64,000 bases of DNA from Sipunculus nudus. Taxonomy: Eukaryota > Annelida > Sipuncula > Golfingiida > Sipunculidae. This document shows positions 1-62,400 of the stretch, in pieces; positions within the stretch are counted from its first letter, which is position 1; every line of letters begins with the position of its first letter. The stretch covers positions 13,818,839-13,882,838 of the forward strand of contig CM049316.1 in NCBI GenBank assembly GCA_026874595.1, in the 5' to 3' direction. Made by a program: the position numbers and the translations under genes. The notes beneath the pieces are model-generated. The model had not been told where the DNA came from. It did not search any database and saw only the letters and a program-made list of their open reading frames with translations.

Positions 1-3000
1 CAGAACTGATGAGCACGCAGCTTCGGTCCTGCAAAGATGAAAGCTTCCTCATGGCAGGCCCTCTTGCTAGCAGGATTAATGCAATAGGTATAAGTCTGTT
101 AGCATTGGTTCCTGACTTTAGGAAATGAAATTCTTAGGGTATGCTGTCAGTACCTGTGTTTGACGTAGATATTCTTTTATATTCTTTTAGCAGCTGTCTT
201 TAGATTTAAAAAAAAATATGTTGGCAGTGAGTTCCTAGACACTATTTGATTTGGAGAAATATTTTGTCAGCAGTAGTTTCTAAACAGGTGGATTTGATGC
301 ACTGGTCATTACAGTTTGAGCTTGACTTTACATTTGACGTTGATGGCAGACTTGTTTGATATCTTCAATCATCAAACTAAGTAATCTTAATGTCAGTTAA
401 TCCACAGAGGGCGAACAAGATTTTACACAGAAGACTGGAGATTTACAATGCTGATTTGGATACCATATTCTGTCACTGAAGATGTCACTTTATTTCAAGT
501 TTTCCACTTAATTTCAGTGAAAAAACATGGGTTAGATGATATATCCCAAGAGGTAGCAAACCTTGTCTCACATGCCACGCAAGAGCGGTTACGAAACCTT
601 GCAGAAAAATTAGCTGTCATTGCAGAACATCGATTAGAAATTTATAAGGTAAGTTTGCTTAAATTGAGGGATCTTTGATGTGCAATGGATATTGGTTTTG
701 TTTCTGAGAAGAACCAATTTATAAATGTAAATTTACTTACCTTATATTGGTAATCTGTGTGTTTACATGTAAACACATAAACATGCCTTGAGACTTGAGT
801 AATGAAGCTCTTTTGTAGTCTTGTAAATTCTCAAATTCATTTTACAGGATCAAAATAAGTTATTAGAAGTTAATTTATAATTGCTGATAAAAATAGAATA
901 TGTTTTTAGAAAGACAGTTTCAGATAGATGAATATAGATAAGTCTGGCTGATTGGGAATCATAATATGATTAATCAAACGAGAAGGATAGTTCCACCTCA
1001 TCCTTTCTTCTATATAAGCAAGTTTAGTTTACAGTCATATGACTTTAAAAATCATGTATTCTACAACTCTTGAACCCCAGGTGCAAACAGGTAAATCTTA
1101 AAGTCAATTTTTTTTTGTATAGACTGATTCTAGGTATGAAGTGTCTTCAGAGGTCAAAGGTCAGATAAAGTTTTTAGAAGAATTAGACCGACTTGAAAAG
1201 AAACGACACGAAGAACAGGAGCGGGAGGTATTACTCAGGGCAGTGAAGGTGAGGAGAAATTTTGTGAATTATGATTATGAAGAATTATTTATTATTATAA
1301 TGTTTTCTACAATTAAAAAAAAACAGCAAGTTTGTGTAGGTTTGTATTGATCTCAGCTGATGGTGTAAACTATATTTATAACAATTAGCCAGCAAATTCT
1401 AACATTTTTACTTGTTTCTATTCTAAAAGGATGAAGGACTGCCATGCACCTTATGGTGGAAAGCTTCTAAGACATTGTTCCTTTATTAGATTTTGTTTAT
1501 CTTGAAAGCCTTTGACAATTACTATACTTTTTGCCCTGTTGAATTTGTCATGAAAAAAAACCCCATTTAATTGGATGTCCAAGAGTTTTATTTTAAAAGT
1601 TGATGACTTTTCATGGCTATTTTGTTTACTTTCAGAGTCGCTCAAAAAATGAAGACCCTGAACAGTTGAAATTAAAACAAAAAGCAAAAGAGGTAAGTCA
1701 TGAAATGTTTAATGTTATACTGTTGATGGAAGGATGAGAGCAATCGCAAACTGAACACACTGTATCTGTGTCACAGAGAAACCCTTCATGAAACCAGGGG
1801 CAGTGACTTACTCTGCATACTGTATCTTTAGTACCATATTGTGTTCATCAATAAATTTAGCTGTAACTTGTGAGCTTCTGCAAAGTGACTTACTCTGTTT
1901 TCACGAAGAACTTCAGCTTTACTGTATCTTTTGATCCATATTGTGCTTATTGATATATTTTTAGCTCAGCTGGCTGTAAGTCATCTGAGCTATAGGGATC
2001 ACCTTTTGTCCGTCGTCCGTCTGTCTGTCCGTCTGTCCGTTAACCAGGCACAAATCATAATTTGTAATTTGACCTAGAATCTTGTAACTTGACACTCTGA
2101 GAGGTCCATAAAAATCTCCTTGTAAACCAGAAATTAGGTCTCTGTTACCTATATCCTTCGAGCTATGGGGCCCCAAAGTACCCCCCAGAATAGTAAAAAA
2201 ATTCATACAAAAACTGCCATATCTCAATAATTACTTGACTGATGGTCATGATTTTTGGCATACATATTGATTATGAGATGTTCCATCGGTTTCTGCAGAC
2301 TGGTGGCGCCACCTATATTGTTTGATTTTTTAGCTCAGCTGACTATAAGTCATCTGAGCTATAGTCGTGGTCCATTGTCCGTCGTCCGTCCGTCTGTCCG
2401 TCCGTCCGTCCGTCCGTCCGTCCGTCCGTCCGTCCGTCCGTAGATGTGGCACGTTTTGAAACCGTAAGACCTAGGAATCCAAAATTCGGCATACTGTTAG
2501 ATGTCCCCAAGATCTCCTACCAAGCCGAAAACTGGGTCTTTGCAACTTCCTTCCTTTGAGAAATTAAGGAAAAACCTTAATTTTTTATTAAAAACCTATT
2601 TTCCCACTTTAGGACTGCCTAATGTCAAAACCACTCATCTGTTTTTCCTCATATTTACCATAAATATTCCTCTATATAGTTCCTATGTACATGCCAGAAA
2701 TTATGTCTGTATTATTTAATTTAAAAAAGTTCTGGGCCCAAACATAATGCATTTTGAAAAAAATAAGGAAAGATATTTGATCACTTAACACAAAAAAGGT
2801 TAAAGCTGTGGACCTTTTTTCCAGTAATATAACTTTAATTTATCAAAATTAAATTGTATACCCAAAATTAGATGAAAATCTTTTAAATTTTTTAAAATAT
2901 TAATAAAAATAAAAAATTGGTACCTTAAATTTTGCCCAACTTTGACCATGGCACGTTTTTTTCCTGTAAGTACTGTGGATTTAATTTTCACAGCATGTTT

Positions 3001-6000
3001 TTGTCAGCATTTCAACTGTTAACACCAAAAATTTGAAACCAGTTGATCAAAAACTGAAGATTTTAATCAAGTTTTCAAGCACCTTGTAACATATTGTTTA
3101 CATCAAGCTAGTGTTATGCAGTTTGCAAAAGCTCAGCTCCCCAGCTTCAGCTCTAAGTTCCTTAAATTCAGCATGCAGTTAGATGTCTCCAAAATCCCCT
3201 ACCATGCCAAGAATTTGGTCACTAGGACTTAATACCTTTGAGATATTAATGAAAAACTTCATTTTTCCATTAAAAACCCATTGTTACACTTCAAGACTGC
3301 CTAATATCAAAACCACTGATCTGACTTTAATCATAAACAATATACATATTTTTCATTCTCTATGCACATCCCAGAATGATGTCAGTATTGCGTAATTGTT
3401 TTAAGTTATGGGCCCAAACATAATGCACTTTGTAAAAAATCAAGAAATATATTTACTCCCTTAACAAGGGCATTGCTAGAGATTTTTTTGTCAGGGATGT
3501 AACATTATTTAATCAAGATTCAATTGAATACCCAAAATTAGTTCTGAATTTTTCAAATTTTATAAGTTATTAGTATAAATATAAAATTAGTACCTTAAAT
3601 TTTGCCCAACTGTGACCATGGCACGTTTGTTTCCCGTGAGCACTGTTGATATAATTTTCATATCATGCACACATTAGGATTTCAGCTTTTTAGTTTAGAA
3701 AGCTGAAAGAAATTGGCCAAAAATTGTAGCTTTTATTAATGTTTTTTATGAGACCCTGTCAGACTTTGGCTCTCTCCAGCCCCTCTTGAGTCACCTGTAT
3801 GTTGACCTTGTTGACCTTTCATCAAATTATGCACGCTTGAGGCGAGGCATACAGGAATCCAGGCAGCTTATGGCCAGCCACAGTTGATCCAGGTGTCCAA
3901 CCCAACTCATCTAGTAGTTTTAACCAACAACATAACAATAAACAACAAATTAATAAATTTTTATTGGTTTTTAATAACAAATTAAAGAAAAATAGAAAAG
4001 GAATTTGTTAGTTTATAATAACAGGAAATTAACTTGCAGTTACTGATGATATAAGAATCTTGTATCGATGGGTAGAATGTCACATATTCCAAATAACACC
4101 ATGCAGTCACCTATGGCATTTTTCAGTTCAATTTTAATGATAAAGAAGTAAATCATATTATTCATTACTAATCATTAGGGATCATATGAAGGAAATTAAT
4201 GATAGACAAAGATGCAGTTGATAATATTAATCTAGATTCCTACTGTGTCTAGTGTGTACATTGATGTGAAATTAGTCCAAAATGAATTTTTTACAGTTAT
4301 TTTTTAATATAAATAAAAGCCATAAAACCAGGTACTTATGATCATTATTTAAATGTGTGAATTTTGTATATTCTGGATTCTCAACATCATTGTTTGGTGA
4401 AAATTGAATAAATACCAGACATGGTGCGAATACTTTGTAATTGTATTTAAATACGAATATGATTATGTACTCCATTATAAAATTCTTGCATAAAGAATGG
4501 GAATTCAGGTAAAAATGAAAGTATATGAATACTCGTGCAAATACTTTCAAAATGTATTCATGAATGCATTCATGAATATATTCTTTAATATTATTTTAAT
4601 AATCATATCAGTTATATTTCATTTTAAAAAATCATATGATTCTCTTATTATTTTTAATAAAAATTATATTTGGGACAATATTTGTAATTTTTTTTAATAA
4701 ATAGTTAAACTCTTATATTATTTGTTCTGCTTATAAGTTATATGGCCAAGTCAAAATCTGTGTGACAATAGTACTCCAATTGTTAATAAAATAAATGAAA
4801 TCAATCCTCTTCCCTGTCTCCAAAGGTACTATCAAAATCATACATAAGCTAAACAACAACAACAACTCATAATACAGCTTATATTTATTACCACACAAAA
4901 CCAGCATGTGCCTCATTTCTAAATAATATTTTTTTATCATATATAACAGCTGAGCGTCGTGACCCATAGGTCCCTTGTTTAGGATTTCTTCCTCTATTTT
5001 TGAGACCTTTAAGGATGCTGTCATCTGTTAGCATGGCACAAATCGTAACGACTGGACCTAGAATCTTCATTCTCAATACACTGAGAAACCTATGAAAAGT
5101 CTCCATGGAAACCAGAAATTAGGTCTCTGTTACCCATATCCTTCGAGCTATGGGACCCCAAAGTACCCCCCAGAGTAGTCAAAAATTTCATACAAAAACT
5201 TCAATATCTCAATAACTACTTCACTGATGGTCATGATTTGTGGCATAACTATTGAGCAAGAGGTGTTCCATCAGTTCCTGCAGACTGGTGGCACAACCTG
5301 TATTTGTTCGGGTTTTTTTTTACGAATGTTTTATCTATTTTTGAGACCTTTAAAGATATGAACATCTGTTAACAGGGCACAAATCATAAAAACTGGACCT
5401 AGAATCTTCATTCTTGACACACAGGGAGACCCATGAAAATTCTCCATGGAAACCTGAAATTAGGTCTCTGTTACCCATATTCTTTAGGCTGTATGGCTCC
5501 AAAATACCCCCCAGAATAATGGAAAATTTGATACAAAAAGTGCAGTATCTCAATAACTACAACACTGATGGTCATGATTTTTGGCATACATATTGATCAT
5601 GAGCTGTTCCATCAGTTTCTGCAGAGAGGGTGCGCCACCTCTATTTTTTTCAAATTTTTACGATTTTTTTTTCTCTTTTTTCGAGACCTTTGAAGATGTG
5701 GCCATCTGTTAACAGGGCACAAATCATAACGACTACACCTAGAATCTTCTCTCTTGAAATGCAGGGAGGCCCATAAAAAGTCTCTTTGGAAACCTGAAAT
5801 TAGGTCTCTGTTAACCATAACCTTTGAGCTATGGGGCTCCGAAGTACCCCCCAGAATAATGGAAAATTTGATACAAAAGCTCAAGTATCTAAACAACTAT
5901 TGCAGTGATCACCATGATTCTTTGCATGGATATTGATAATGGAATGTGTCATCAGTTTCTGCAGTATGGTGGCGCCACCTTATTTTTTTTATTTTTACGA

Positions 6001-9000
6001 ATTTTTATGCCCCCGCCACAAAGTGGCCGGGGCATATAATATTACCCATGTCCGTCATTCCGTCCTTCCGTCCTTCCGAAATCAAACAGTTGTACGGGCT
6101 TTTTTTCGCAATGCCTGCAGATATTGGCCTGATTTTTGGTGTGTGGGCAGATATAGACCAGTTACAGATCGAGTTCGCGTTTCGTCCTGGTTGACCTATT
6201 TTTGACCGTTTTACGGCTCCTAAACTTAGAAAATTTCATGAAAAATAGAAATATTCATGACATATACACATGTACGGACTTTTTTTCGCAATGCCTGCAG
6301 ATATTGACCTGATTTTTGGTGTGTGAGCAGATATAGACCAGTTACAGATTGAGTTTGCGTTTCGTCCCGGTTGACCTACTTTTGACCGTTTTACGGCTCC
6401 TAAACTTAGAAATTTTCATGAAAAATAGAAATATTCATGACAGATACACATGTACGGAATTTTTTTCACAGTGCCTGCAGATATTGGCCTGATTTTTGGT
6501 GTGTGGGCAGATATAGACCAGTTACAGATAGAGTTCAAGTTTTGTCCCAGTTGACCTACTTTTGACCGTTTTACGGCTCCTGAACTTAAAAAATTTCATG
6601 AAAAATATGAAATTTCATGACAAATCCACATGTACGGACTTTTTTTCACAATGCCTGCAGATATTGGCCTCATTTTTGGTGTGTTGGCAGATATAGACCA
6701 GTTACAGATGGAGTTCGCATTTCGTCCCAGTTGACCTACTTTTGACTGTTTTACGGCTCCTGAACATAGAAAATTTCATGTAAAATATATATTTTCATGA
6801 CAAATACACTTGTACAGACTTTTCTTCACAATACCTGCAGATATTGGCCTGATTTTTGGTGTGTGGGCAGATATAGACCAGTTACAGATCAAGTTCACGT
6901 TTTGTCCCAGTTGACCTATTTTTGACCGTTTGACGGTGCTCTAACATAGAAAATTTCATAAAAAGGTGCACATGTATGGACTTTTTTTCGCAGTGCCTGC
7001 AGATACGAGCCTGATTTTTGGTGTGTAGGCAGAAAATGACCAGTTACAGATCAAGTTCTTGTTTTGTCTCAGTTGACCTACTTTTGACCATTTGACTGCT
7101 CCTGAACATAGAAAGTTTCATGAAAAATATAAATTTTCATAACAAATGCATATGTACTGACTTTTTTTCCTCAATGCCTGCAGATACCACCCTGATTTTT
7201 TGTGTGTTGGCAGATAATGACAGTTACAGATCGAGTTTGTGTTTCATCCCGGTTGACCTACTTTTGATTGTTTTACGGCTCCTAAACATAGAAAATTTCA
7301 TGAAAGACAGAAATTTTTATGGAAAATGCACATGTATTGACTTTTTTACACAATGCCTGCATGATTTTTGGTGTGTTGCTTGATAATGACCTGTTACAAA
7401 TCGAGTTTGCATTTTGCCCTTGTTGACCTACTTTTGACCATACGACACCTCCTTAACTTAAAAATTTTTCCAAATTTAACAAATGTTTCTAATTTGCCCA
7501 AGGCGTGGGCATTCGTGTCGTTCCTACACATCTAGTTTTCTCTATTTTTGAAACCTCATAAGATGTGGTCATCTGTTAACATGGCACAAATCGTAACAAC
7601 TGGACCTAGAATCTTCTCTCTTGACATGCTGTGAGGCCTATGAAAAGTCTCCTTAAAAACTTGAAATTAGGTTCTGTTACCCATAACCTCTGAGCTATGG
7701 GGCTCCGAAGTACCCCCCAGAATAATGGAAAATTTGATACAAAAGCTCAAGTATCTGAACAATTATTATATTGATCACCATGATTCTTTGCATGGATATT
7801 GATCATGAAATGTTTCATCAGTTTCTGCATTTTGGTGGAGCCACCTGTATTTTTTTTATTTTTTTAAATTTTTTTTTCTCTATTTTTGAAACCTTTTAAG
7901 ATTTGGTCATCTGTTAACAGGGCACAAATCATATCAACTGGACCGAGAATCTTCTGTCATGACATGCAAGGACGGTCATAAAAAGTCTATATGGAAACCT
8001 GATACAAGGTCTCTGTTACTGATATCCTTTCAGCTATGAGGCTCGGAAGTTCCTCCCAGAATAATGCAAAAATTGATACAATAACTAATGCATTGATCAC
8101 CATGATTGTCCACATTTGTATTGATAATGCCTTGTTTCATCAGTTTCTGTAGACTGGTGGTGCCACCTGTATTTTGATTTTTTAAGAATTTTTTTCTTGA
8201 TTTTTGAGACCTTTAAACATTTGGTCATCTGTTAACAGGCCACAAATCATAATGACTTGACCTAGAATTTTCTTTCTTAACATGCAGGGAGGTCCATGAA
8301 ACATCTTGGAAACCTGAAATTAGGTCTCTGTTACCCATATCCTTCATGCTCTGGGGCTCTGAAGTACTCCCCAGAATAAAGATTTGGTTATCTGTTAACA
8401 GAGCACAAATTATAATGACTTGACCTAGAATCTCCTTTCTTGATATGCTTGGAGGCCCCTGAAAAGTCTCCTTGTGCACCTGAAATTACATCTCTGTTAC
8501 CCATATCCTTCATCCTATGCGGCTTTGAAATACCCCCCAGAATAAACATTTGGTCATCTGTTAACAGGGCACAAATCATAATAACTGGACCTAGAATTTT
8601 ATTTTTTGACATGCTGGGAGACCCCTGAAAAGTCATCTTGTAAACCTTGAAAATAGGTGTCTGTTACCCATATCCTTCATGCTACAGAGCTCCATAGTAC
8701 CCCAATGAATATTGGATGATTTTATACAAAAGGTCAAGTTTGGAAAAAGTATTTCATTCAAATTTGACATTCAGATGATAAAATTACTTTTGTCAATGTC
8801 TTCCTGGTCAGCTGAGCGTCATGACCCCTGGGTCACTTGTTTACTATAACTGCATTTCTGCAAACTTTCTTTTTCCAAGAAATCTAGTTTCAAGGGCCAA
8901 ATATCAGAAGATTATGATTGTACAAGAAGTTTTCTTTCTTTTCAAGAATATTTTCCAACCAGTAGGTTTAATTCTCAGGGTTTGGCATGGCTGTCATGTG

Positions 9001-10279
9001 AGTCATACAACAAGGCATACATTTTTTTAACTAGTATGCACTAGTTTAGAAAATCAACAAAACCTTGTGAAAAAGAGTTGTTATATCATATATTTAATTT
9101 CTCAGTATTATTTTCTTGGTATTTTAAAATTATCTGCAGAACAATAGATGCACTTTGTAATTGACCTGATTTTCATGTGTATGTTACAGTTTTCTTTACT
9201 ACATATTTGAGATATAAGATTTTTAGGTTTCCTTTTTAACTATCTTTTATTATGAGATCAACAGCATGAGATCACAGTCTGTTGCTGTTTTCCAATTCTC
9301 AGTATCTCTGACACAGTGTGTTGCTGTTTTCCAGTTCTCAGTATCTTTGATGCAGAGTCTTGCCATTTTTGAGTTCCTAATATCTTTGAGAGTAACCAGT
9401 TCTCAGAGAATATATGACACAGTCTGTTGCTGTTTTCCAGTTCTCAGTATCTTTGACACTCTGTTGCTGTTTTCCATTTTTCATTTATCTCCATCTTTTT
9501 CTTGTTTACAGATGCAGGCAGCTGAGATGGAGGAGATGAGACAGAGAGATGCCAACCAGACGGCGCTGTTAGCCATAGGACCCAGGAAGAAGAAGAAAAC
9601 AGATACAGCGGACTCAAATCAGGTAGGACAGTTAACAGTTAATCATCACCCAAAACATTCCAACAGTTATTAGTTAATTATCACCCAAAAAATTCCAACA
9701 GTGGTCAGTTAATTATCACCCAAAACATTCAAACAGTTATCAGTTAATCATCACCCAAAACATTCAAACAGTTAACAATTAATCATCACCCAAAACATTC
9801 AAACAGTAAACAGTTAATCATCACCCAAAACATTCAAACAGTAGTCAGTTAATCATTGCCCCAAAAATTCAAACAGTTGTCAGTTAATCATTACCCAGAT
9901 CATTCAAATAGTTATCTGTTAATCATCATCCAAAACAATCAAGCTGTTACTGTTATCAGTTCATCATCCAAAACATTCAAACAGTTGTCAGTTTATCATC
10001 ACCCAAATCAATCAAACAGTTGTCAGTTTATCTTCACCAAAATCATTCACACCATTATCAGTTATCATCATCCAAATCATTCAAACAGCTACCAGTCAAA
10101 CATCACACAAAACTCCCAGTATTGTTGTTATGGTGCATTTGCTTTGAATTTTTACGAGGAGGTATTGATCTGTAATATTCTGATCTGTTACAGTCAAGTG
10201 GGTCGGGACCATCCACACCTGGAACATCTGGTATTGGCAGCTCTGTGAACAGATCCTCTGTAAGTATGCCCATACTCAT

Positions 10280-13253: not shown

Positions 13254-14459
13254 TTTTTTAGCTCAGCTGACTGTAAGTCATCTGAGCTATAGTGATCACT
13301 CTTTGTCCATCGTCCGTCTGTCTGTCCATCTGTCCATTAACCAGGCACAAATCGTAACCGCTGGACCTATATTATGTAACTTGACACTCTGAGAGGTCCA
13401 TAAAAAATCTTGTAAACCAGAAATTAGGTCTCTGTTACCTATATCCTTCAAGCTATGGGACCCTAAAGTATCCCCCCAGAATAGTAAAAAATTTCATACA
13501 AAAACTGCCATATCTCAATAACTCTGATGATCATGATTTTTGGCATACATATTGATTATGAGGTGTTCCATCAGTTTCTGCAGACTGGAAGCGCCACCTC
13601 TATTTTTTTTCAAATTTTTACGAATTTTTTTCTCTATTTTTGAGATCTTTAAGGATATGAACATCTGTTAACAGGGCACAAATCATAACAACTGGACCTA
13701 GAATCTTCATTCTTGACACACAGAGAGACCCATGAAAAGTCTCCATGGAAACCTGAAATTAGGCCTCTGTTTCCCTTATCCTTCAAGCTATAGGACTCCG
13801 AAGTATCCCTCAGAATAACGGAAAATTTGATACAAAAGCTGAAGTATCTGAACAACTAATGCAGAGATCACCATGATTCTTTGCATGGATATTGATTATG
13901 GAGTGTTTCATCAGTTTCTGCAGACTAGTGGTGCCACCTATATTTTATTCAATTTTTCGAATTTTTTTCTCTATTTCTGAGACATGTTTGGATGCTATCA
14001 TCTGTTAACGTGGCAAAAATTGTAACAACAGGACCTAGAATCTTCATTCTTGTCATGCAAGGAGGCCCATGAAAAGTGTCTGTGGAAACCTGAAATTAGG
14101 TCTCTGTTACCCATATCCTTCAAGCTATAGAAGCCTCAGAATAATGGAAAATTTGATACAAAAGCTGAAGTATCTGAACAACTAATGCAGAGATCACCAT
14201 GATTCTTTGCATGGATATTGACCATTAAATGTTTTTATTAGTTTCTGCAGACTGGTGGAGCCACGTGTATTTTTTTTAAAAGTTTACGCATTTTTTCTCT
14301 ATTTTTGAGATTTATAAATACAGACAAAATCTTGCTCTGTTATTAAATCTGTTTGATGCTTCAGTTAAATGGGTATATACTAACATTCAAATGATAAAAT
14401 TTCCTTTTGCGAATCTCTTTCCATTCAGCTGAGCGTCATGACCCATGGGTCACTTGTTT
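13254..14459 (+). mobile_element. Helentron-like element D (complete)
   Basis: A complete copy of the same family as element A. The 5' T-run is followed by AGCTCAGCTGACTGTAAGTC and the hairpin, a GTCCGTCTGTC leader, three to four 300-bp units (from about 13340, 13630, 13960), the conserved pre-terminal CAAATGATAAAAT block, and the 3' end at 14426-14459 (CAGCTGAGCGTCATGACCC, the palindrome TGACCCATGGGTCA, CTTGTTT). It is uninterrupted and noncoding, so it is the best local reference for the family. Confidence 0.75.
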
Positions 14460-21572: not shown

Positions 21573-23280
21573 TAACAAGTGTCCAATGGGTCATGACGCT
21601 CAGCCGACTGACATGTTGACAATATGTCATTGCACAGGCAATCAATTAAGATAATCTAGGTGGCATCATTGTTCATGTATATTAGCTTAAGTTCTTCAAG
21701 ACCCATAAGCACAACAAATTTGATGACAATCCAACCAGCCTTTCCTGAGGAACCCGGCAATTTGTGTATTTTTTGCATTATTTCTGGGGTGCTCAAACAT
21801 ACCCCAAAACCCTGAGAATATAGGTCACTGTGGCCGAATTTCAGGTTTCTGGGGAGAACTTTTGAGGAACTCTCAAGATATCAAGTAAGAAGATTCTTGG
21901 CCCAATGGTTATGATTTGTGCCCTACTTTGGTATCAAATTTTCAATTATTCTGAGGGGTGCTTATAAGCTCCATAGCTCAGAAAATATGGGTAACAGAGA
22001 CCTAATTTCATGTTTCCATGGAGACTTTCCATGGACCTCCCTGGATGTTAAGTTAGAAGATTTTAGGTCCAATGGTTATGATTTGTGCCCTGCTTGATAT
22101 CATTTTTTTTTTATTATGCTTGGAGGTGCTTATAAGCCACATAGCTCTGAGAATATGGGTAACAGAGACCTGATTTCAGGTTTCCATGGAGATTTTTATG
22201 GACCTCCGGGAATGTCAAGAAAGAAGATTCTAGGTCAAATGGTTATGATTTGTGCCCTGTTAATAGACAACTACATCTTTGAAGGTCTCAAAAATAAAGA
22301 TAAAATGTGTAAAAATTGGAAAAAGTCCAGGTGGTGCCACCAGTCTGCAGGAACTGATGAAACACTCCATGATGAATATGCATGCACAGAATAAGGGTGG
22401 TCAATGCATTAGTTGTTCAGATACTGGAGCTTTTGTATCAAACTTTTAGTTATTCTAGGAGGTAATTCTAAGCCCAATAGCTCAGAGGATATGGGTAACA
22501 GAGACCTAATTTCAGGTTTCCATTGAGATTTTTTATGGACCTCCGGGAATGTCAAGAAAGAAGAATCCAGGTCAAATGGTTATGATTTGTGCTCTGTTAA
22601 CAGACGACCACATCTTTGAAGGTCTCAAAAATAAAGATAAAAATGCGTAAAAATTGGAAAAAGGCCAGGTGGCGCCAACAGTCTGCAGGTACTGATGAAA
22701 CACTCTATGATGCATATGCATGCAAAAAATCATGCCGATCAATGCAATTATTGTTCAGATACTAGAACTTTTGTATCATTTTTTTAGTTATTCTGGGGGG
22801 TTCTTAGGAGCCCCATAGCTTGAAGAATATGGGTAACAGACACCTAATTCCAGGTTTCCAAGGAGACTTTTCATTGACCTTTCTCGATGTAAAGTAAAAA
22901 GATTCCAGGTCCAGGGGTTAGGATTTGTGCCCTGTTAACAGATGACCGCATCTTGTTAGGTCTCAAAAATAGAGAAAAAGAGTTGTAAAAAATTGAAAAA
23001 ATTCAGGTGGCGCCACCAGTCTGCATTTACTGGGGGTACTTCGGAGCCCCATAGTTTGAAGAATATGGGTAACAGAGACCCAATTCCAGGTTTCCTAGGA
23101 GATTTTTCACAGACCTCTCTGGATGTAAAGTTAAAAGATTCCAGGTCCAGTGGTTAGGATTTGTGTCCTGTTAAAGGACAGACGGCCGGATGGCCAGACG
23201 GACGACGGAAAAGAGTGATTGCTATAGCTCAGATGACTTACAGTCAGCTCAGCAGCTGACTTACAGTCAGCTCTGCTCAA
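21573..23280 (-). mobile_element. Helentron-like element E (reverse orientation)
   Basis: The 3' terminus comes first on the + strand (AACAAGTGTCCAATGGGTCA followed by TGACGCTCAGCCGAC, 21574-21609). Reverse-oriented units follow, with GTAACAGAGACCTAATTTCA (about 22000, 22165, 22500, 22840, 23070). Then comes a GGACAGACGG-rich leader and the 5' hairpin (23222-23280), where part of the terminal hairpin is duplicated (CAGTCAGCTC seen twice). It ends about 450 bases short of the NELFCD stop codon, so it may lie in or just beyond that 3'UTR. Confidence 0.7.
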
Positions 23281-29700: not shown

Positions 29701-32700
29701 CCTCCGTCTCTCACGGGCACCGCAGTTTGTATCTGACTAGATTCTTATTACACTAGGCATCCACATCAAACTTGCTTCCAATAAAATTTATGAAGATACA
29801 AAGATGCATTTTTCATAATATATAAACATGATAAAGCGTTCAAGAACCAAATGGGTGTCCGTGACGAAGCAAACTCGTGTACCATTCTTGGTACTCACGT
29901 GCCTTGTGTGCAATTCACGTGGGATCTACAGCAATAATATTTACAAAATATTGCAAAGCACGCATGGTGGAACAACTGTGATACAGGTAGAATTGTCATC
30001 TTAGTTAAGTTTAAACGAACTCGGTTAGTTTTTGGATGGGTGACCGCGCGTACCAAACGGGGCACGCGAGCTAGGACCATTTCCGGTCGTATATATTTTA
30101 ACGCGCCTATACTTTCCTATATTTATTATGTATTATGCAAATAAAAATTATCTGATAATAGGCAGTTATTTTTTATAAAGTCTTCTTCCAACTTGATGCA
30201 GCTGCTTGTCCTTTTTCGGCCCGCCGATATCGCCGCCTGGCGGGTTAACTTGAAACAACTGGTGGTTACATGAGTTGCCGTCTATGTCAAGTGATCGTAC
30301 CTATATGCGAAGTAGTGATCATTTTGTAAAGTGATTGAGCTCAGTTTGATTAATCATTTGCGGACTGCGTATAATTCATGTGACGGTTGGAAGCCCGTTT
30401 GTAGAAAATACTGTTAAGCTAACAAAACAAACTTATATATGACCAAATTATCACTCAATTTATATGACTGTTCGAGTGTCAGAGCGGCTCTGCGTCTCTA
30501 CGGAAGGTATTCAAACCGTATGCCTCTAATATCTCAACCACCGCAAATTCTGCATGAAGATAATTTTCAAATATCCTCCATTATCTCGACCTCTGAGAAA
30601 ATTAATTATTTTTAAGTGGTCGCCAAATTAGAATAAATACGGTACCATAATACTCCAGTCATATGACGGGCGTATAAAAATTGAAAGTCTCATACCACAG
30701 TGATATCAGCAGGATTGAGAGCGTTTCGGGACAACATGGAGGCCAGAGCCTGACATGCCCGGGGGTAAGCTGATGCACCACTCAGAGCCAGCGTTATCGG
30801 GGTGACATCTAACCCTCTGTAGAGAAACAAAAACATGCACATAATCACAGAATTACAAATATGGTCCCAGCCTCAGTATGGATCAATTTACCCTATGGTA
30901 ATACATGATGTATTCATGTCTTTTGTGCTTATTAATCTGGCAATGAATCTGTTTTTCCCTAAAGTCTGAGACTACAGTTCATAGTTTAGACTGTCTGTTG
31001 AAATGTTATGAACTTGGATAATATGTTATTACACAGCCCTGATTTCATGTTTTGTACACTCGTAACCTACCTGTCTTTGGCACATCGCTGTAGCTCCTGG
31101 CACAATCTCCTGATGTTGGAGCCACCTTTGTTTTCCTGTGACAGAATGTGCATCAGCACCTGACTGTAAAGGTATGTGTGCTCACCATGACACACCATTT
31201 TCTGAAAAGGTAAACCCAACCTTGTAATTAGAAAAGCAATCTTTAACTTAGTTTTACCCTGGCATTTGCTATGTATGACCCGTTACTGGCCAGATGACGA
31301 AAAAAGAAAGGGATCCCTAGGAGTGAATGGAAGATGAAAACTAAGGTGGCTCCTATAAGTGAACACGCTACTGAAGGCAGTTTTACCACTCCAGCTGATT
31401 CTGACAGGGCTAAAGGGTGGTATTTAAAGATGTATTGAAAATATCACTGAAAAGTTCCTGTGGGAAAATATCTATTTTCCATTTGTGACACCTCAGTATT
31501 AACATGAATTGATATGACCTCCCTTCAAAAGATCTATCCTATCCAATAAATTTAAATTCAAAAGTCTAAAGCATTAAATCCATTTTTTCATGAAATAATT
31601 TATTTGGTGAACCTGTTTATGGATATGTTTAAATAGAATAAATAAAGAGATGCTCATAGTAGAAACAGGAGGGAACTTTGTCAGAACTTTGGAAATTCAA
31701 AGAATAAAAAAAAAATAAATAAAAATCAACCAACAAAGAAGGAACTGATCAAACCTTTGCTTTAGTTATATACAGAACTCCAATTTAATGACTCAATGCC
31801 AGATCTGAAGACTGACAGTCATGGTTTCACAAATAAGATACTGCCACATATCTGAGCTATGACCATACATATTTAATAATCAATATGCCTGTATAATGTT
31901 GTGCTAATAGCTGTTACAATAAATCTAAAGACTATGGTATACTGTACAGAAATAAAATTCCTTACTGTAAATTCAGGAAGGTTTTTCTCGAGGACTTCTT
32001 CACCTCCTTCGAGGAAACTCGTGATACACGTACGAAGAACACGGGAGAACACTTCAATCTGGTGACATGCTGTCGATACACTCGTAATCTCACCCTGGTG
32101 GCCAGCATCTGATATTAGCTGAAACACATACATACATACATACATACATAATATGAATAAGAAGAAAATGAAGGGCCAGAGGACCCAAAACTCAGATGTG
32201 AACATTTCCAATCTGACAATACTGTAACAATTTTTTTCTATTTCATATAGGGAATTCCTTGAAATTTAATGATTTATTTCAGCTGCAAACCACGCAGAGA
32301 CTTCTTAAAGAGCTATAGAGACTACAGGCCTAAATTTCTAAGAATACTGAACAGTCTGTAAATTTGAAATGCCTGCTATCAGGCATGAACCTACTGTATT
32401 TTTTAACAGTTTGCATTTTTGCATGGCTTATATGACTTCTGTGTTAAGATTTCACCAGGCGCCAATGACAGTTTTGGAGAAATTGCTGGACTGACTCTCT
32501 TAAAAAACTTGGTTTGATCACAGAGATATTATAAGGAATACACGGTAAGAAATTTCTGCTTTTAAAAAAAAGTGCACAGTACCTAAACATATCAGCTGAA
32601 AATGGACAAATCTCTCATATAAACATATATAACACAGGTTGCCAAATAAAAAAATGACCATGCATCCTACTTTTACCAAGAAATGAATACATGTGTGCAA

Positions 32701-43530: not shown

Positions 43531-43690
43531 AACCTCCAAACAGTGTTTATATGAAGTCAGTGTTGACGATAGATTGCATCTGGCCTTGTTTGGAGGTTAG
43601 AGAAACACTGCGCATGTCACTTCATTTACGTTTGACAAAAACAAAAACACGTGTGGCATTGTTGTCTGTCGTCTGCTCAGCGTCTAAATC
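43531..43690 (+). promoter_or_regulatory. SLC25A43 core promoter / 5'UTR
   Basis: 160 bases between the MULE target duplication and the ATG. Visible motifs are an NRF-1-like half site TGCGCATG (43609-43616) and an E-box CACGTG (43648-43653), both common at nuclear genes for mitochondrial proteins. Two inverted repeats are interleaved: AACCTCCAAAC (43531)/GTTTGGAGGTT (43588) and CAGTGTTT (43541)/AAACACTG (43603). Motif function is inferred. Confidence 0.4.
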
Positions 43691-44939: not shown

Positions 44940-47900
44940 CAAGGGTTAAGGCTGCACTGTATATTGAAAGAAGATGAAGGTAACAAAAATGATATGTAAT
45001 TATTTAAGACTGGATTTCAGGGATCAAAGCAACGGGGCTAAGAAAATCCAGAAATCATACGTGCGCGCTAAGCTGCGACTTAAGAACTAATCCCTGACGT
45101 TAAACTGACGTATGACGATTATTTTCTTAAAGGATAGGAGGGAAGGAAGAAGGAGGGACGTTGAACCTCTTTCTGCGTTTACCAAGGCCGACCCAACGTA
45201 TCCAAAATTTGCATATTTAAGTACATTAATTATGTGAACGCCTGGTGTCCGCAAAAGATACTTAAACTTGTTTATTTTCACTTTAATAAAGTTCTGTCAT
45301 AATAATCATGCCTCTTTGAGAGAAATTCACTTTTTATGTGGTATTAGCTCTGTATGATATTAAGCAATCCTCTCAACACGATTTATATCCGCAAATGCTG
45401 CAATGAATTGTTTGAATGTGCATCTTGATATTGTTATAATAATAATACATTTTTACATATGCATATGTTCTGATTGTTGAGAATTCGGTAAAATCTTATA
45501 CTTACTTACACTGATAATGAGAAAATAGATGTTCAAAAGCAGGAAAATTTCCAATTTATTTATATCATATGATTTTTTTATCGGAAGTTTATTTAAAGAC
45601 ATGTCTGCCATAGATATGCCATAGACATGCAACCTTTGACAAGTAATGATCGTAATGTTTTTTTTTTAAGTTTTTGTGAATTCCTCTTTAGAATCAAATG
45701 GTCAATGGAACATTTTAATTTTGTACTATTACTGTCAATTATATATTCAAATTCTCCAATAAATCATGCAGAGAACCACCGATAGAACCGATAGCACCGA
45801 TGAAAACATAAGAGATAATTAATGAGCTATTTAAGCTCACGGATTTCTGTTAATATATAATATAATAGTGTAAATGATATATAATTTATTTATTATATAT
45901 ATTATTTTATAAACCTATATACATTTATAGACATCATTGAAATGGAAACTCAGTTCTGAGACCAGATTAATAAATTTTTTTTTTAAATTTGAAAAATTTA
46001 TTTCTAAGCAGTAAATATAAGATATTTTTTCATGAAATATGCATTTTTACTTACTTTGTTAATTTAGATATTCAAAATTGTGTATCAACAAAGGATGCCG
46101 ATTTTGTAAGAGAAGGACCACGTACATGAAAAAAAGTGTTTAGCCATATTGAATATATAATATATTATGATATATATGTTATGAAAATTTAATAAAATGG
46201 AAAATATAATGTGCAAAAACATATTTTTTTTATTTTATGACTATATAGTTTAATTATATTTAACACTTTTAATAAATAAACATTCCAACACACATATATA
46301 TATATTATTATTAATGTTTATATATACAAATGGGATTTTTTTTTAAAAGAGTATACTGATATTAACCATTTAGGCTCGTGCTGGCTTTAAAACATGAAGC
46401 ATTTAAATGTCTCGGCTCTATTCCGTTCATGAACAGGGCCAAAAGAGGCTGCGAGGGCCGCTGCGAGAGGTTTCTGAAATTCGCAAATTTAAGAGAGCCT
46501 GCGCTTTATAGTGAGTTTGCGAAAGTTTTGATCACATCCAAAATCAGTCTGCGAGAAGTTTGCGAAAGGTTTTTGCTCGCAAATACCCTTGCGAAACCTT
46601 TGATCACATAGGCCCTGACCAAGATTCTGTTGCTAAATATCTAGTCTTAAATGAAGAAAGGAAGCATTTCTGTTTAATCCTTTTCTAGATATTTTGCTCA
46701 AAATAGATAAGCATTTATTCAGTCTTTATTCACCATCACAATGATCGCACTCTGAAAAGAGCGAAACAATCGTTATAGAATCACAATGCAACAGTTCTTA
46801 AGGAACATAATATGCTCTAAAAAAGGCATAATTGGAAAAGACAATAAAAATTTGTAAAGCTTCAGTTACTGTAGGTGGTACCACCTGCTGGTGCAGAAGG
46901 TGTAGTTGATAAATTTAGGCCGGTAAACACACTATGTTTCATAATAATCCTTCATGTGGTTCATAATAAATTTGGTCACAGGATTTTTTAGCTCAGCTGA
47001 CTGAAAGTCATCTGAGCTATAGCGATCACCCTTTGTCCGTCGTCCGTCTGTCTAGCTGTCCGCCCGTCCGTCCGTTAACAGGGCACAAAATGTAACCACT
47101 ATACCTAGAATCTTCTAGCTTGACAACCAGGGAGGTCCATGAAAAATCTCATTGGAAACCTGAAATTAAATCTCTGTTACCCATATCCTCCGAGCTATGG
47201 GGCTCAGAAGTACCCCTCCAGAATAATTAAAATTTTGATACAAAAGCTCATGTATCGCAACAACTAATTCAGTGATCACAATGATTCTGTGCAGGCATGT
47301 TCATCGTGGAGTGTTTCATCAGTTTCTGCAGACAGGTGGCGCCATCTGGATTTTTTCCAATTTTTCACGCATTTTCTTTCTATATTTTTGTGACCTTTAA
47401 AGATGTGGTTGTCCGTTAACAGGGCGTAATCACTGGACCTAGAATCTTCTTACTTGACATCGTGGGAGGTCTATGAAAAGTTTCCTCGGAAACCTGAAAT
47501 TAGGTCTCTGTTATACAGATATCATCCGAGCTATGGGGCTCAGACTTACCCCCACAATAATTAAAAGATTGATAGAAAAGCTCCAGTATGGAACAACTAA
47601 TTCATTGATCACCATAATTACATATTGATCATGGAGTGTTTCATCAGTTCCTGCAGACTGGTGGTGCCACCTTGGTTTTTTTCGATTTTTTTAGCATTTT
47701 TTCTCTATTATTGAGTCCTTTAAAGATGCTGTTTTCTGTTAAAAGGACACAAACCATAACCACTGTACCTAACATTTTCTAACTTGTCATCCTGAAAGTT
47801 CCTCAAAAGTTCTCCCCAGAAACCTGAAATTAGGTCACTGTGACTTATATTCTCTGAGTTACAGGCCATGTTTGAGCACCCCAGAAATAATTCAAAATAT

Positions 47901-48326
47901 ACACAAATTGCCAGATTCCTCAGGAATGGCTGAATGCATTTTCATCAGATTTGGTGTGCTTAGGGTATTGATGAACTTGAGCTAATATGCATGAACTATG
48001 ATGCCACCTACATTATCTTAATTAGTTGCCTTTACAAGTACATATTAGTCGGCTGGGCGTCATGACCCATGGGTCACTTGTTTTTCTATAAAGGGCTCTG
48101 TGACTATGAAAAGTAGATCAAGGTCACCCATCTTCGAACTTGACCGAGATGTTGTCGAGGTAAATCTGACCTGACGTCATAAGGTTTATATGTTTAATTC
48201 TTTATTAGATACCCCGCTCACAAGAAAAAGTTCAACTAACAAAAGGCAAACAAATCGTAAAGCAATAAAGATATCATAAGCTGCTACAGCAGTAACAGAT
48301 AACCAAGGCCCGTAAGCCCATGCACC

Positions 48327-48407
<81 letters not shown>

Positions 48408-51400
48408 CAATCCTTCAAGTGGTTCCTGAGAAAAGATTTTTTCTATAAACAGCCGTGTGACCTTGAAAAGTATAGGTCAAATTCACCCATCTTCGAACTT
48501 AACCAAGATATATATATTCATATACATCTGCCCTGAAAAAAAAATGAAATTTTGCTCAGTTTAATTCCTTTTTAAATATATCCCACGCACAAGTTAAAAA
48601 ATAACGCCCAGACGTCGGCCAGACGGATCACAATGCCCGTAGTCTGCCTATCCTTTTCACAAACAATAATTTCTTTGTGTAATGGCGCCCGATTATTGCA
48701 TGGCATGAATAAGAAACTTAAACACCTCCCTTCTTTAATAAAATTAATCTAGTGCAATAAATAGCCCAGAGCTCCCGTGGAGACTTAAAAGCAATGTGGG
48801 CAGTGCGTTGGCTGAGGGATGCGCTTTTTCAGAACACTCGCAATTTTTTAAAGAATTATTCATGCGCCTGGTCGTGCATATACGTACCAACCGCGTTACG
48901 GTGAAAAGGTTAGAACTGACAGTATCTAAGTGCATTGATAATGCTAGATTTACGTAAATGGGCTCCCAAATTTAAATAGCTTCTGTCCATGAGAAACAAA
49001 ACCGCCGTCACTTCTTCTAATTATATATTTGTACAAAATATATATACAATTTACACAGTGGAAGTAGAAATTGGCTAAAATTTTAGCTTTCATAAAACGA
49101 ATGTTAGAAGCTTATCCCGGATTAAAGAATAGGCGGACTAATGACAAAACCTAAAAAAAGGTCCCCAGGTTCAGAAAAGACGGGGTCCAGGTCGCAAAAG
49201 TTGAATTGTTCTGAAACCCTTAAAAAAAATTCGGCGGAAGGAGAAGGGGGGGGGGGGGGTCCGTACCTCCTGGAACCCCTCTGGGTCCGCTTCTGATTGT
49301 TCATATTGAAGTCTGTAAAATATAGGAAGGTATATATATATATATATAAAAGCCTTCACACGCTTTGAAAACGTACACTGTTTATGATATTCATGGCTAT
49401 ATTTCGACATGACACATTAAAATGTCAATATGTGAAGTCAGAACAATGTCTTGCTATACGGAAATGACAGCATGAGAAGGATTTGATGTGCCCATAATAA
49501 TTATGGTACAATCCCTTGAGCAACACATCGGCTAATATATAAATCGTCTTCATTAATTACAGGATCGATCCCACTCGGGAGCGCCACTTTTGCTACATAT
49601 GAACTGTTGGACAGGTTATCAACTGGAAGACGGTGCTTAGATGGGTCCTCTAACCCCGTTGTCAGTGTCATGTCAGGCTGCCTCGCTGGGTCTGTGGGAC
49701 ATCTTGTGGCATTCCCATGGGACACCATCAGAAGGAAAATGCAGGTGACGTTAGATTATGCACATGATACGATAAACTTTTTCCATGATCGCGTTTCCGC
49801 CCACTTTTCCACGCGCGAAATTAAACTGTAATTCCATATGCGATTATATAAGCATTTGCGTGAAAAAAAAAATGGCTGTTTCCATTTGCGCGTAAATGCG
49901 TATTTGCGTGAAAAAAAACATAGCTGTTTCCATGTGTACGTATATGCACATTTGCTTAAAAAATAGCTATTTCCATGTGTGCGTAGGTTTATAAGCATAT
50001 TTGCGTGAATAAATAGCTGTTTCCATGTGCGCGTATATATGCGTATTTCCGTGAAAAAAATAGCTGTTAAACAGTTTCCATGTGCGCGTCTTTGCATGAA
50101 AAAATAGCTGTTTCCATGCACGTGCGCATAGGCCTATATGCGTATTTTCGAGGAAAAATAGCTGTTTCTGTGTGCATGTATATGCGTATTTGCGTGAAAA
50201 TAGCTGTTTCCATGTGCACGTATATATGCGTATTAGCATGAAAAAAATAGCTGTTTCCATGTGCGCGTAGGCTTTTATGCGTTTTTGCGTGAAAAAATAG
50301 CTGTTTCCATGTGCGCGTAGGCTTTTATGCGTACCGGTATTTGCGTGAAAAAATAGCCGTTTCCATGTGCGCGTATATGCGTGAACTGACAGACTATTAT
50401 AGATATACAGCCGATCTAGTAGGTCTACCTAATAAAAGATGATGGAGTGACGTCATTAAAGCCCGAATCTTTGAGTTCATGCAGACCCTACGTCGCGATT
50501 TAAACGCACCGATAAGGCATAAGCGCTTATGGACACATTGAGACGCCACAGTTACAAACGCTTTTTCACGCATATACGAGCACACATGTAGCTTTATGCT
50601 TTTCCTTGTGCACGGAAACGCGATCATGGAAAAAGAGCCTAACAGTCTGTTATATCAACCAAGTACAACATAATTATATTGCAAGTTTCGATTTACTTTT
50701 TATCATTTGTATTTTATTTTTCATTCGTTGTCTCTTAAAATTCATCCTGAAAGTCTGTCCAGCGGTTACAATTTTTGCCCTGTTGACAAATGACGGCATC
50801 TTTTAAGGTCTCAAAATAGAGAAACAAAATCGTAAAAAATCGAAAAAATACAGGTTGCGCCACCAGTCTGGAGAAACTGGTGGAACACACCATGATTAAT
50901 ATCCATGCAAAGAATTACGGTGATCAATGTATTAGTTGTTCAGATACTTGAGCTTTTGTATCAAATTTTCATTGTTCTGGGGGTACTTAGGAGCCCCATA
51001 GCTGGAAGAATATGGGTAACAGAAACTTAATTCCAGGTTTCCAAGAAGACTTTTCATGGACCTCTCTTGGTGTAAAGTTAGAAGATTCCAGGTCCAGTGG
51101 TTAAGATTAGGGCCTTGTTAACGGACAGACAGCCGGATGGCCGGACGGCCGACGGACAAAGAGTGATCGCTATAGCTCAGATGACATACAGTCAGCTAAG
51201 CTAAAAAAATGGTGGCACCACCTGCAACCATTTTTGCACAGTGTCCATCTGTTCATCTTGGGATAAAATCTATCATATCCCTGCAGTGAATGGACTTATC
51301 CACCTGAAAATTTTACATGTGTATTCATCCTGGAGAGCGTTCTTGCTTTTATGACAGGTGGCGCCACCTACATTCACGTTCAGGCTGCAGACATCCAGGC

Positions 51401-59447: not shown

Positions 59448-62400
59448 TCAGTCTGTTACATTTGGAAGGGCATGCCTCCAGCCAAGATGGAGCTGCTTCG
59501 ACAAGTTCTCCACAACCATTCTAAAGGTGGCATTTTCAGCTTGGTTTTCAACTTCAAAAGGGTCTACATGGTGTACATACAGTTCCCTGGCATGTTGTTT
59601 ACTCCAGTCCCCCTGGAACTTTGTGGGATCAAACTCCACCCACTCAGTGTAGCGATACTGTTCCGTCCTAATACTGTATCCCATAATCTTGATATCCTTT
59701 AGGCGAGGTCGACAACTGTTGCTCTGTGGCTTGTCAGAAGGTCTTGGATATTGACTAAAAGCTGCTTTTTTCCACATCTTTAAGTGAATATCTTCTTTCT
59801 TCCCATACTTTGAGAACCCTCTATGGTGAATGTTTGTGAGTTTTGTGTTTGCTTGAAGCAAAGCTGCAAAACTGTATCCTTCTGTGCAGGCTGGGATATT
59901 GGTGGAATTTTCGGGACACATTTTAATAGGTGGAAGACCAGCGATATCTGCAACAGTTGGAAACAAATCCACTAATTCTACAAAACTGCTGACATAATTG
60001 TTTTTTAAGTATTTCCCCTCTCCAGTGTTTTCTGTGAACCTGGACTGGCGTATATGTGTAGTTATGTGGTTAAATGGATTCTGGTAGTTAAATGCAGGCT
60101 TGGTACTCCTTGAGGATGGCGTGTATACCATTAATGGGACTCTGACAGCTTCTTCAAAATTTGAGTACTTTGCCCATTCTCCTCTGACTCCTAGTGACCA
60201 TCCTGTGAAATAAAAACATCAACAAATATAATACAACTAGATAAATACTGACAGGTCAGGAAGGGCCCTGCTAAAGGCCCATAGACTTCTAGTGTGGGCT
60301 GAGTGATGCTTGGAAAATATAAGACCTGATTACATGCAGAGACAGAGAAAACTAACCAAAACCAGTATTTAAACACTAAAGCAAGATGAAAAGACTGGCA
60401 AGAAAAGTTTGGCTTAAAAGGCATTCACAACTTTTTAGAATTATAAGTTCTGAGACCTTGACCTCTGACCTCATGACCCCAAAATCAATACGGTTCTTGC
60501 TTTTTGGTGGGCCATATAAATATTAAGTTTGAAATCCATATCTGAATCCAAACTGGAGTTATGAAAGGTTACAATAATCTAAATACTGCAAGTTCAAGGA
60601 TAATATGTTCTCAGATTTTTTTGGTCACAAGGTCATTGGTTAAGATCACAGGACCATCATTCTATAAAATGTTTTAAAAAATATCCTTATAGACAAATAC
60701 AGCTGAGTGTCGAGACCCCTGGGTCCCTAGTTAAATATATCATGCAAAATATTAATTTAACCCTTTGAACCCTTGATGATGAACTTGATGAACACCTGAA
60801 CACCCCTATGTCCAGCAGACTTACAGTTACATGTTATGCAGAACCCTTACAAAAAAAAGTGAGAGCAAATCTTAGTTTTCTTCATCAGCTAGTATATATA
60901 GGCCTACAATGCATAAGAATAAAAAATAACAATGCCTCCTTGAAAATTACACGACAATGCTCATACAAATCTACAAGCTTAACACCAACTATTGCATTTG
61001 TATTAATGCAGAAATTATAGGGGTTTTTTAATATATAAAGTTTTAATAATCACACCAAAAAAATGTTTGATTAAAGTTCTGAAATAATGAAAATTATAAA
61101 AATTATAAAGGGGAAAAGCAGCACTTACCATGGTCTCCGAGCAGCACTACTACAGTGTTGTTACTGAATCCAGCAGAACCCAAGGCTGCCAGCACCTGTC
61201 CCACCTGGTCGTCCATGTATGTAGTAGCTGCGTAGTAATTCTGCCGGATTCTCAGCTGTCAAAATTTATACCATAAAATGATGATTACATTATAAATGAA
61301 CAATTTAAAAATGTGTTTGCCTAATTTTTTTCTTCAATATTTATTCACAGTAGTTTTTTTTTCAGTAATCTGAAAATGCCTAAAAGGTTAAAACATGCTA
61401 TAACATCCATAATGATAACATCTTATTTGTAACATACACAGATTAGACTGCAGTTACACCATTTCTATACAGGGTATCTAATTCTTCTAAAATTACCAGA
61501 CTGACATGCAGGGCTAATGTTTTTCATCAACAGAACCCCCCCCCCCCCCCCCCCAAACAAGAGTTGCTCAAACGCTACATTCATTCTATAACTCCTCCAA
61601 CTTATCCACTGCTCCCTATATCAGGATTTGCTTGGCGTTGCCTCTAGGGAAGTTGGCACAGGGCCAATAATCATGTTACAGCCAATGAGAACAGAGTGTG
61701 GTGATTTGGCTAGAAAGTGACGTATAATTAATCAGCTATGCCAACTAACTTATTATGGCTTGTGGTGTAGAATACCTGAAATTCATGAGGTATTGGCCCA
61801 TAAGGGAAGCTGACATTTAGGGCCTCCACATCTTCTCTGACACGGATGTCATTCCACGGGTTCCATGCCACTGATGGCAGACTGGCTGGCACCCTGGGAT
61901 AGGGTGGTGGGCTGACATGTGACAATGGATACAAGTCTGGAATAAAGAAATCACAATATGGGAATTTGTTCTTTTTGTTTCAGTGCTTTTTAATTCCAGG
62001 GATGATTTGATTGGCAGCTACCATTCCTCCCATGTCTGTTTGTTTGTCCTTCTGACTGCTTGAATTTACAATCTCTCCCTGAAAGCTGATCGATTTCAAT
62101 AATTTTTTTGGTGTATGTGCAGGTAAATGACAGTTGATGAAATGATGAAAAAATATTGTGTCTCGTTTTTGACATAGAGTTCTATACATGGTGACGGCTG
62201 CCTGTCAGATAGGGGTATATACTATGATGACCCTGTGGGCAAAATGGCATGTGGTGCTCCCCCTTCCTGAGTTATCACTGGTGAATTTTCTGAATCCAGT
62301 AAAGTAATTTTGACCTGTTTCTCATCTGACGAGTTCAATGCTTAATACTGGAGAATTTTTTTATTAATCCTTTGTTTCTTACATACTGGAAACATCCACA

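Follow-up and report, generated by a model that had tools for sequence, protein, structure and literature searches.

A two-level nest of probable non-coding Helentrons in a TAF4 intron of Sipunculus nudus, and a Helentron with matching ends in the same genome

The window considered here is a stretch of 64,000 nucleotides from the sipunculan annelid Sipunculus nudus (GCA_026874595.1, contig CM049316.1, positions 13,818,839 to 13,882,838 of the forward strand), and it opens on part of the gene TAF4. The joined translation of the exons matches Pfam TAF4 with E = 7.5e-50, in keeping with the gene context proposed in an initial annotation of this DNA. One TAF4 intron (1693-9511, 7819 nt) is largely occupied by a repetitive element, A, together with two guests, B and C, that interrupt it; A with its guests fills 6879 nt. 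The three are very probably Helentron-associated interspersed elements (HINEs), non-coding Helentrons with tandem repeats that depend for their copying on the Rep-helicase-endonuclease encoded by full-length Helentrons of this genome. A rolling-circle transposon of a known kind is likely seen here together with its driver, a Helentron of the type found on assembly sequence C17. The exons and elements are as follows.

520..648 (+): TAF4 exon piece (KKHGLDD...EIYK), its frame read by eye; the joined translation matches Pfam TAF4
1123..1248 (+): TAF4 exon, from translation and Pfam
1636..1692 (+): TAF4 exon preceding the intron, from translation and Pfam
1963..8841 (+): element A, probable HINE, from its ends and unit phase; own sequence 2700 nt without B and C
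2332..4979 (+): element B, probable HINE of A's family and another subfamily, from ends and joints; B-type sequence recurs elsewhere in the genome (L036, L047, L048)
6007..7537 (+): element C, HINE-like, of a second family, from ends, units and joints; the C-type 3'-end pattern recurs in the genome
9512..9622 (+): TAF4 exon following the intron, from translation and Pfam

The nesting is legible in the tandem units of A. Anchors in successive units lie 2984, 341, 341, 1867, 340, 312, 168, and 167 nt apart in the raw sequence; with B and C removed the spacings become 336, 341, 341, 336, and 340, then 312, 168, and 167 toward the 3' end. When the two joints are aligned to 12 uninterrupted unit joints of A and of four further family copies in the window (D, E, F, and G, listed below), which serve as empty sites, reading continues straight across both, as the initial annotation had proposed. 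B entered the first T-run of a unit linker and C the second. No target duplication is found at either joint by comparison with the 12 uninterrupted ones, and where A, C, D, and E border their flanks nothing beyond T's is repeated. At the edges of B the longest abutting direct repeat is GATTT (3 nt of slack allowed on each side), and repeats of at least 5 nt occur in 240 of 5000 random pairs. Duplications longer than TT, named at the outset as evidence against a Helentron, are thus absent apart from this match. Because A is the immediate host of B as well as of C, and C does not lie within B, the nest is two-level, the product of two separate insertions into A, and not the three-level nest first described.

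A, B, and C share one plan: a T-run, a 5' hairpin containing a subterminal inverted repeat (subTIR), a GTCC leader, tandem units, a 3' copy of the repeat, a weakly folding palindrome, and a CTWGTT end. Their coordinates, termini, and ends at T's were upheld by the sequence and by end comparison, and repeat analysis bore out the TCCG-rich leader and the tandem units. Five T's precede position 1963, where A opens with AGCTCAGCTG; it closes with CTTGTT at 8841. The parts are given below.

1963..1991 (+): A, 5' terminal hairpin (5' subTIR and inverted repeat) after five T's; from folding, geometry scan and ends
2004..2040 (+): A, GTCC/GTCY microsatellite leader; from the sequence and repeat family D9
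2047..2331 (+): A, tandem unit 1, whose T-rich linker is interrupted by B; from repeats and joint alignment
4980..6006 (+): A, ~341-nt tandem units, interrupted by C at the linker's second T-run; from repeats and joints
7538..8740 (+): A, tandem units of ~340 nt, then short units of 166-168 nt; from repeats
8809..8841 (+): A, 3' subTIR, palindrome and CTTGTT end; from ends and folding
2332..2360 (+): B, 5' hairpin after six T's; from folding, geometry scan and ends
2377..2441 (+): B, GTCC microsatellite leader; from repeats
2461..3745 (+): B, two diverged units with a spacing of 670-682 nt; from repeat families D8, D11 and D14
4947..4979 (+): B, 3' subTIR, short palindrome and CTTGTT end; from ends and folding
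6007..6035 (+): C, 5' hairpin of the same 7-1x1-5-3 geometry as in A and B; from folding and geometry scan
6091..7467 (+): C, tandem array of seven to eight 180-nt units; from repeats
7502..7537 (+): C, 3' subTIR, weak palindrome and CTAGTT end; from ends and folding

End comparison separates two sequence families, A/B and C, as had been proposed. The ends of A and B are identical at 71 of 83 positions on the 5' side and at 31 of the last 35, but at only 38 of the last 60. The published subfamily rule asks for at least 80% identity over the last 60 nt (PMC4067079); since 38/60 falls short of it, A and B are counted as different subfamilies. No similarity of the B units to those of A was found, and no stop-to-stop frame of at least 120 aa lies inside A, B, or C. 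In A and in copy G (8214-8684 and 21812-22259) units of 340 nt give way to short units of 166-168 nt near the 3' end, a two-array layout resembling the double arrays of oyster elements. The motif GGTGGNNCCACC occurs 11 times in the window (2302, 5968, 7834, 8156, 22330, 23006, 46874, 47660, 51211, 51357, and 52729), mostly directly 5' of the T-rich linker of an A-type unit; the occurrences at 46874, 51211, 51357, and 52729 lie outside units.

The initial annotation placed an inverted copy of the 5' motif just inside a 3' stem-loop. The inverted recurrence stands, the 3' repeat sitting ~25 nt internal to the element end, with 10/11 positions matched in A, 9/10 in B, 10/11 in C, 12/13 in D, and a weak 8/9 in E. 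Inverted matches as long arise in 12 (A), 43 (B), 15 (C), 4 (D), and 127 (E) of 3000 random window pairs, so that the single-copy end matches are only moderately significant and that of E is not. The 3' stem-loop is present, though weak: folded as DNA it reaches -3.2 kcal/mol in A, -2.6 in B, and -2.0 in C (z -0.2, -1.0, -0.1), and the strong hairpin is at the 5' end (A -7.6, B -9.8, C -12.3 kcal/mol as DNA; z -2.4, -5.1, -3.9). A 3' palindrome is legible in A, B, D, and E and imperfect in C, the folding of these five copies falling within that of shuffles (z +0.1 to -1.0). The canonical hallmarks of Helitron1 elements (5' TC, 3' CTRR, insertion between A and T) do not describe these copies: A-type elements start with AGC after T's and end in CTTG-TT, and C starts with ATG after T's and ends in CTAG-TT, where only the CTAG fits CTRR.

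The 5' hairpins of A/B and C, each 29 nt long, have a common geometry: a stem of 7 bp, then a 1x1 bubble, a further 5 bp, and a loop of 3 nt. Their sequences differ widely, with only 7 shared bases out of 29 and both sides changed in 10 of the 12 pairs. Exact Watson-Crick matches to this geometry are found in the window at B, C, D, and E, with one G-T pair in A and two mismatches in F; 20 windows resampled at first order and scanned on one strand contained none. The centre of the hairpin, in leader orientation, is C-T in 26 of 27 A-type rows, that of L026 being A-T and hence paired. Four to seven T's precede all 26 readable A-type 5' ends in genome stretches L002-L028, a count in which L018 and L019 have no readable end and 3 of 29 rows are the palindrome read in the other direction. 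The flanks of these ends differ, except that L003, L005, and L008 share one junction inside an A-type unit.

Recurrence across the genome is a stronger argument than the end matches of single copies. In the assembly of 1,426,538,692 bases, a 33-nt pattern of the A-type 3' end has 5954 matches and its 31-nt counterpart for the C type has 2040, and each pattern reversed has none. In the window D matches its pattern, and A, B, and C are off by 1, 2, and 1 bases. A chance origin of the ends was considered and rejected on these counts, the reversed controls, and the lack of an exact hairpin in the resampled windows.

A likely autonomous partner for the A-type ends was found among the Helentrons of the same genome. 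A profile search with PF14214 gave 195 candidates, of which 150 were scored, and placed the domain at no fewer than 143 places, seven of them with open frames of more than 2200 codons. The C17 frame is open over 2342 codons and combines Helitron_like_N, PIF1, and Exo_endo_phos, and its Rep motif reads VEFQQRGSPHIH. A frame of a second lineage, on C11, has 2235 codons and the same three domains and is ~31% identical to that of C17; motif 2 has the Helentron-type S in both, a published criterion (PMC4067079). C17 thus holds what defines a Helentron, a Rep, a PIF1 helicase, and an apurinic/apyrimidinic (AP)-type endonuclease in one frame with S in motif 2, although the endonuclease match lies below the Pfam cut-off. 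Residues 62-209 of the C17 frame (L051 1903-8925, minus strand) also match a herpesvirus-tegument-like deubiquitinase domain (Pfam Herpes_teg_N, 1.8e-11), in place of which the C11 lineage has an OTU domain (9.4e-9). Such deubiquitinase domains are reported in Helentrons, those of molluscs included (PMC9741609).

An A-type 3' end lies 992 nt downstream of the C17 frame. A query of 1911 nt was taken from the end of the frame; it reaches the A-type terminus at 1034 and continues for 877 nt into the flank. Five other places match it at 98-99% and stop at 1034, 1035, 1035, 1036, and 1038; a sixth, at 89%, stops at 1031. An earlier query reaching 4 nt beyond the terminus gave the same boundaries, and fifteen more places matched only its last ~100-160 nt. 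Five sisters agree on this boundary to within 4 nt even though the query offered 877 nt of flank, so the C17 element stops at the A-type end. The Rep domain (PF14214) lies at a matching distance in five of the six copies (C17, C5, C9, C10, and C1), with none listed for C8. The 98-99% identical copies elsewhere suggest that the C17 element is mobile and make it a candidate for activity. The C17 flank alone matches C17:35737451-35737941 (88%) from query position 1030 on, as expected of a site beside an insertion. Sequence outside the 3' end of this Helentron recurs nearby at C17:35736779-35737941 (87-88%) and 35642717-35643353 (72%).

Two A-type 5' ends stand upstream of the C17 frame. The inner one falls within an A-type unit belonging to the outer one, and units and then the frame follow. 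When a query spanning both ends and starting 39 nt before the outer one was compared with the genome, 20 other rows (19 at 88-95%, one at 74%) began at positions 31-40, the outer T-run, and passed through the inner end; the nested arrangement has therefore itself been multiplied. Five of the 20 rows fall within 200 kb on C15 (C15:53357436-53551996, 94% to the query), perhaps through local amplification. On C5 and C10, too, A-type 5' ends with units precede the Rep domains, at a distance of 9-11 kb. C13 has a decayed A-type 5' end, then units, then a frame 89-93% identical in nucleotides to that of C17; similarity between these two loci starts at the T-run before the 5' hairpin and stops after the C13 frame. 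As A-type pieces are common, a single locus proves little, and the shared boundaries carry the argument.

The mechanism envisaged follows the known Helentron pathway (PMC4067079, PMC5148889). Rep would recognise the bulged 5' hairpin. The HUH Rep would then nick and the helicase displace the strand, one strand probably being copied by rolling-circle replication. Copying would terminate on reaching the 3' subTIR, the palindrome, and the final CTWGTT, and the single strand would enter a T-run without target duplication. A C17-type Helentron may have moved A and B in this way. The order of the insertions is evident from the nest: A entered the TAF4 intron first, and B and C later the T-runs of its unit linkers.

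Several observations weigh against this account, at least in part. The 3' palindromes are weak in single copies. The Exo_endo_phos match of C17 is weak (E = 0.00044, 20.5 bits, under the Pfam cut-off of 24.5), unlike that of the C11 lineage (3.8e-13). The open frames around the Rep domain are shorter in four of the sisters (1124 aa on C5, 895 on C1, 676 on C10, and 571 on C9), and only C17 is shown to combine a full open frame with A-type ends on both sides. Given its two A-type 5' ends, the start of the C17 element is ambiguous, making it 14.2 or 14.9 kb long, and on C13 no A-type 3' end was found in the 1.9 kb after the frame. The window copies, moreover, resemble the C17 element at only 76-77% in the units and 77-84% in the leader. 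This last point, together with the frequency of nested A-type 5' ends, which also lie upstream of Rep frames, would suit a situation in which A and B are HINEs and the C17 Helentron and its sisters merely captured A-type ends without driving them, the copies being 76-84% similar and not near-identical. Capture is considered unlikely though not negligible, since the five sisters end, to within 4 nt, at the C17 3' boundary where the query went on for another 877 nt. For C the partner itself is the issue: no C-type end was found in the Helentron stretches L049-L052, and the copies of the second Helentron lineage (L049, L050), which has loci at C11:50385293, C7:31578448, C17:61091802, and C4:36174940, extend beyond the sequence examined, with their ends outside it. 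The check proposed at the outset, a Rep-helicase partner with the same ends, succeeded for the A type at C17, whose 3' boundary five sisters share, and produced none for the C type. Transposition of C by some other kind of transposon is nonetheless improbable, as its plan, 5' hairpin geometry, CTWGTT end, and T target are all as in A and B. Its HINE membership fits the plan and rests on structure and copy number, with the T target and lack of duplication seen at one window joint.

More distant explanations fare worse. Tandem units, and the 3874 of 200000 bases that A-type units take up in 20 ten-kb stretches at hand-chosen coordinates, would be expected if the A array were satellite DNA into which recombination or assembly error had placed B and C. 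Such a history is very improbable in view of the same ends in A, B, D, and E, the clean joints, and the recurrence of B-type and C-type sequences elsewhere. It is still harder to credit that these are miniature inverted-repeat transposable elements (MITEs) moved by a DDE transposase. High copy number and inverted end motifs would agree with this, the motifs being ordinary terminal inverted repeats, but the 3' repeat is ~25 nt internal, target duplications are lacking, and the relative with such ends encodes a Rep-helicase-endonuclease. A relative with a DDE transposase, singled out beforehand as contrary evidence, was not seen. The HINE interpretation, and with it the asymmetric terminal-repeat plan originally suggested, is supported, and the T-target layout without duplication agrees with the published HINE/Helentron definition (PMC4067079, PMC7492417).

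The hairpin common to both families invites a tentative idea, on balance rather doubtful, that Helentron 5' ends are read as DNA shape and not as sequence. In A, B, C, and a copy of C at L013, bubble base C8 faces a G of the 3' subTIR. The bubble, and the option this gives the 5' arm of pairing with the 3' subTIR instead, suggest a hypothetical start/stop switch, in which alternation between hairpin and 5'-3' pairing would mark the start and stop of rolling-circle replication and one Rep might serve differing ends. The geometry comparison covers two families only. Oyster HINEs have a variable spacing here, 1-12 nt between the arms (PMC7492417), which speaks against one universal hairpin geometry.

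The plan is already known from HINEs, the oyster ones having the same type of leader (PMC7492417). Cg_HINE of Crassostrea gigas resembles A, B, and C in its 5' subTIR and complementary inverted repeat, GTCC/GTCY microsatellite, one or two central repeat arrays, 3' subTIR and, less surely, palindrome, T-rich target without duplication, and location in non-coding gene regions (PMC7492417). In contrast, the A units here are 340 and then 166-168 nt and the B units ~680 nt long, and a Helentron with matching ends was found, whereas the oyster authors related their elements to no autonomous one (PMC7492417). HINEs and Helentrons of a mite, a mosquito, and Drosophila, including DINE-1, likewise have subTIRs, a 3' palindrome, a TT target, a variable number of T's, a Rep-helicase-endonuclease partner, and an S in motif 2 (PMC4067079). 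They belong to other sequence families, and their pairs are 84-99.9% identical, as against 76-84% between the window copies and the C17 leader and units. Helitron2/FoHeli of Fusarium has terminal inverted repeats that are asymmetric and a hairpin at its 5' end, the loop of which is a 3-nt GAA in FoHeli1 and FoHeli2; it differs in that no fungal endonuclease is reported, the target is TNAT/A, and the stem is shorter and lacks the 1x1 bubble in two printed sequences (PMC5148889). The pearl elements of bivalves, likened here by description only, have a short array of ~160-nt repeats between conserved flanks (per PMC7492417). As far as the searches show, what is new is the family described here and its nest, along with a Helentron whose ends match and a hairpin geometry that two families have in common. 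The driver of the oyster tandem-repeat HINEs was left unresolved (PMC7492417), and neither that 2020 paper nor literature searches gave a published autonomous partner for mollusc tandem-repeat HINEs, though later work may exist. Since a HINE family of thousands of copies and a like-ended Helentron share one genome here, the pairing is now testable. The nest, in turn, gives an insertion order and shows repeat arrays with T-rich linkers becoming landing sites for their own family.

Of 24 A-type 5' ends, 4 independent ones follow an A-type unit, and such units hold 94 of 3727 runs of four or more T's in 200 kb. A preference for own units as target is not claimed, because nested copies score higher in the search and one of the four lies in a locus retrieved for another. 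Further copies of the A family in the window are these.

13260..14458 (+): copy D, both ends present; from ends
46990..48082 (+): copy E, both ends present, 3' subTIR diverged; from ends
21574..23276 (-): copy G, 5' end with a 23-nt duplication; from ends and repeats
50776..51202 (-): copy F, 5' end and one unit, no 3' end found; from repeats
60700..60732 (+): copy H, isolated 3' end with 5 mismatches to the pattern; from ends

B-type sequence recurs partly at L027 in addition to the three places named above. L013 contains C units and a C 3' end, and there an A-type element adjoins the C-type CTAGTT directly. The window gave 0 matches to Rfam, and viral contigs gave no match to the A 5' end or leader. 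Pfam places further genes at 43688-44266 (+), 49520-49828 (+), 31876-32265 (-), and 62799-63065 (-), comprising mitochondrial carrier pieces, TH1, and a sulfatase. Tandem arrays of other kinds also occur: ~14 copies of a 35-nt unit at 9628-10113, 3' of the TAF4 exon 9512-9622; a G-rich array of GGGGGGTCTCCCCCC in units of ~73-76 nt at 38873-39391; and units of ~44-50 nt containing AAAAAATAGCTGTTTCCATGTG at 49853-50382.

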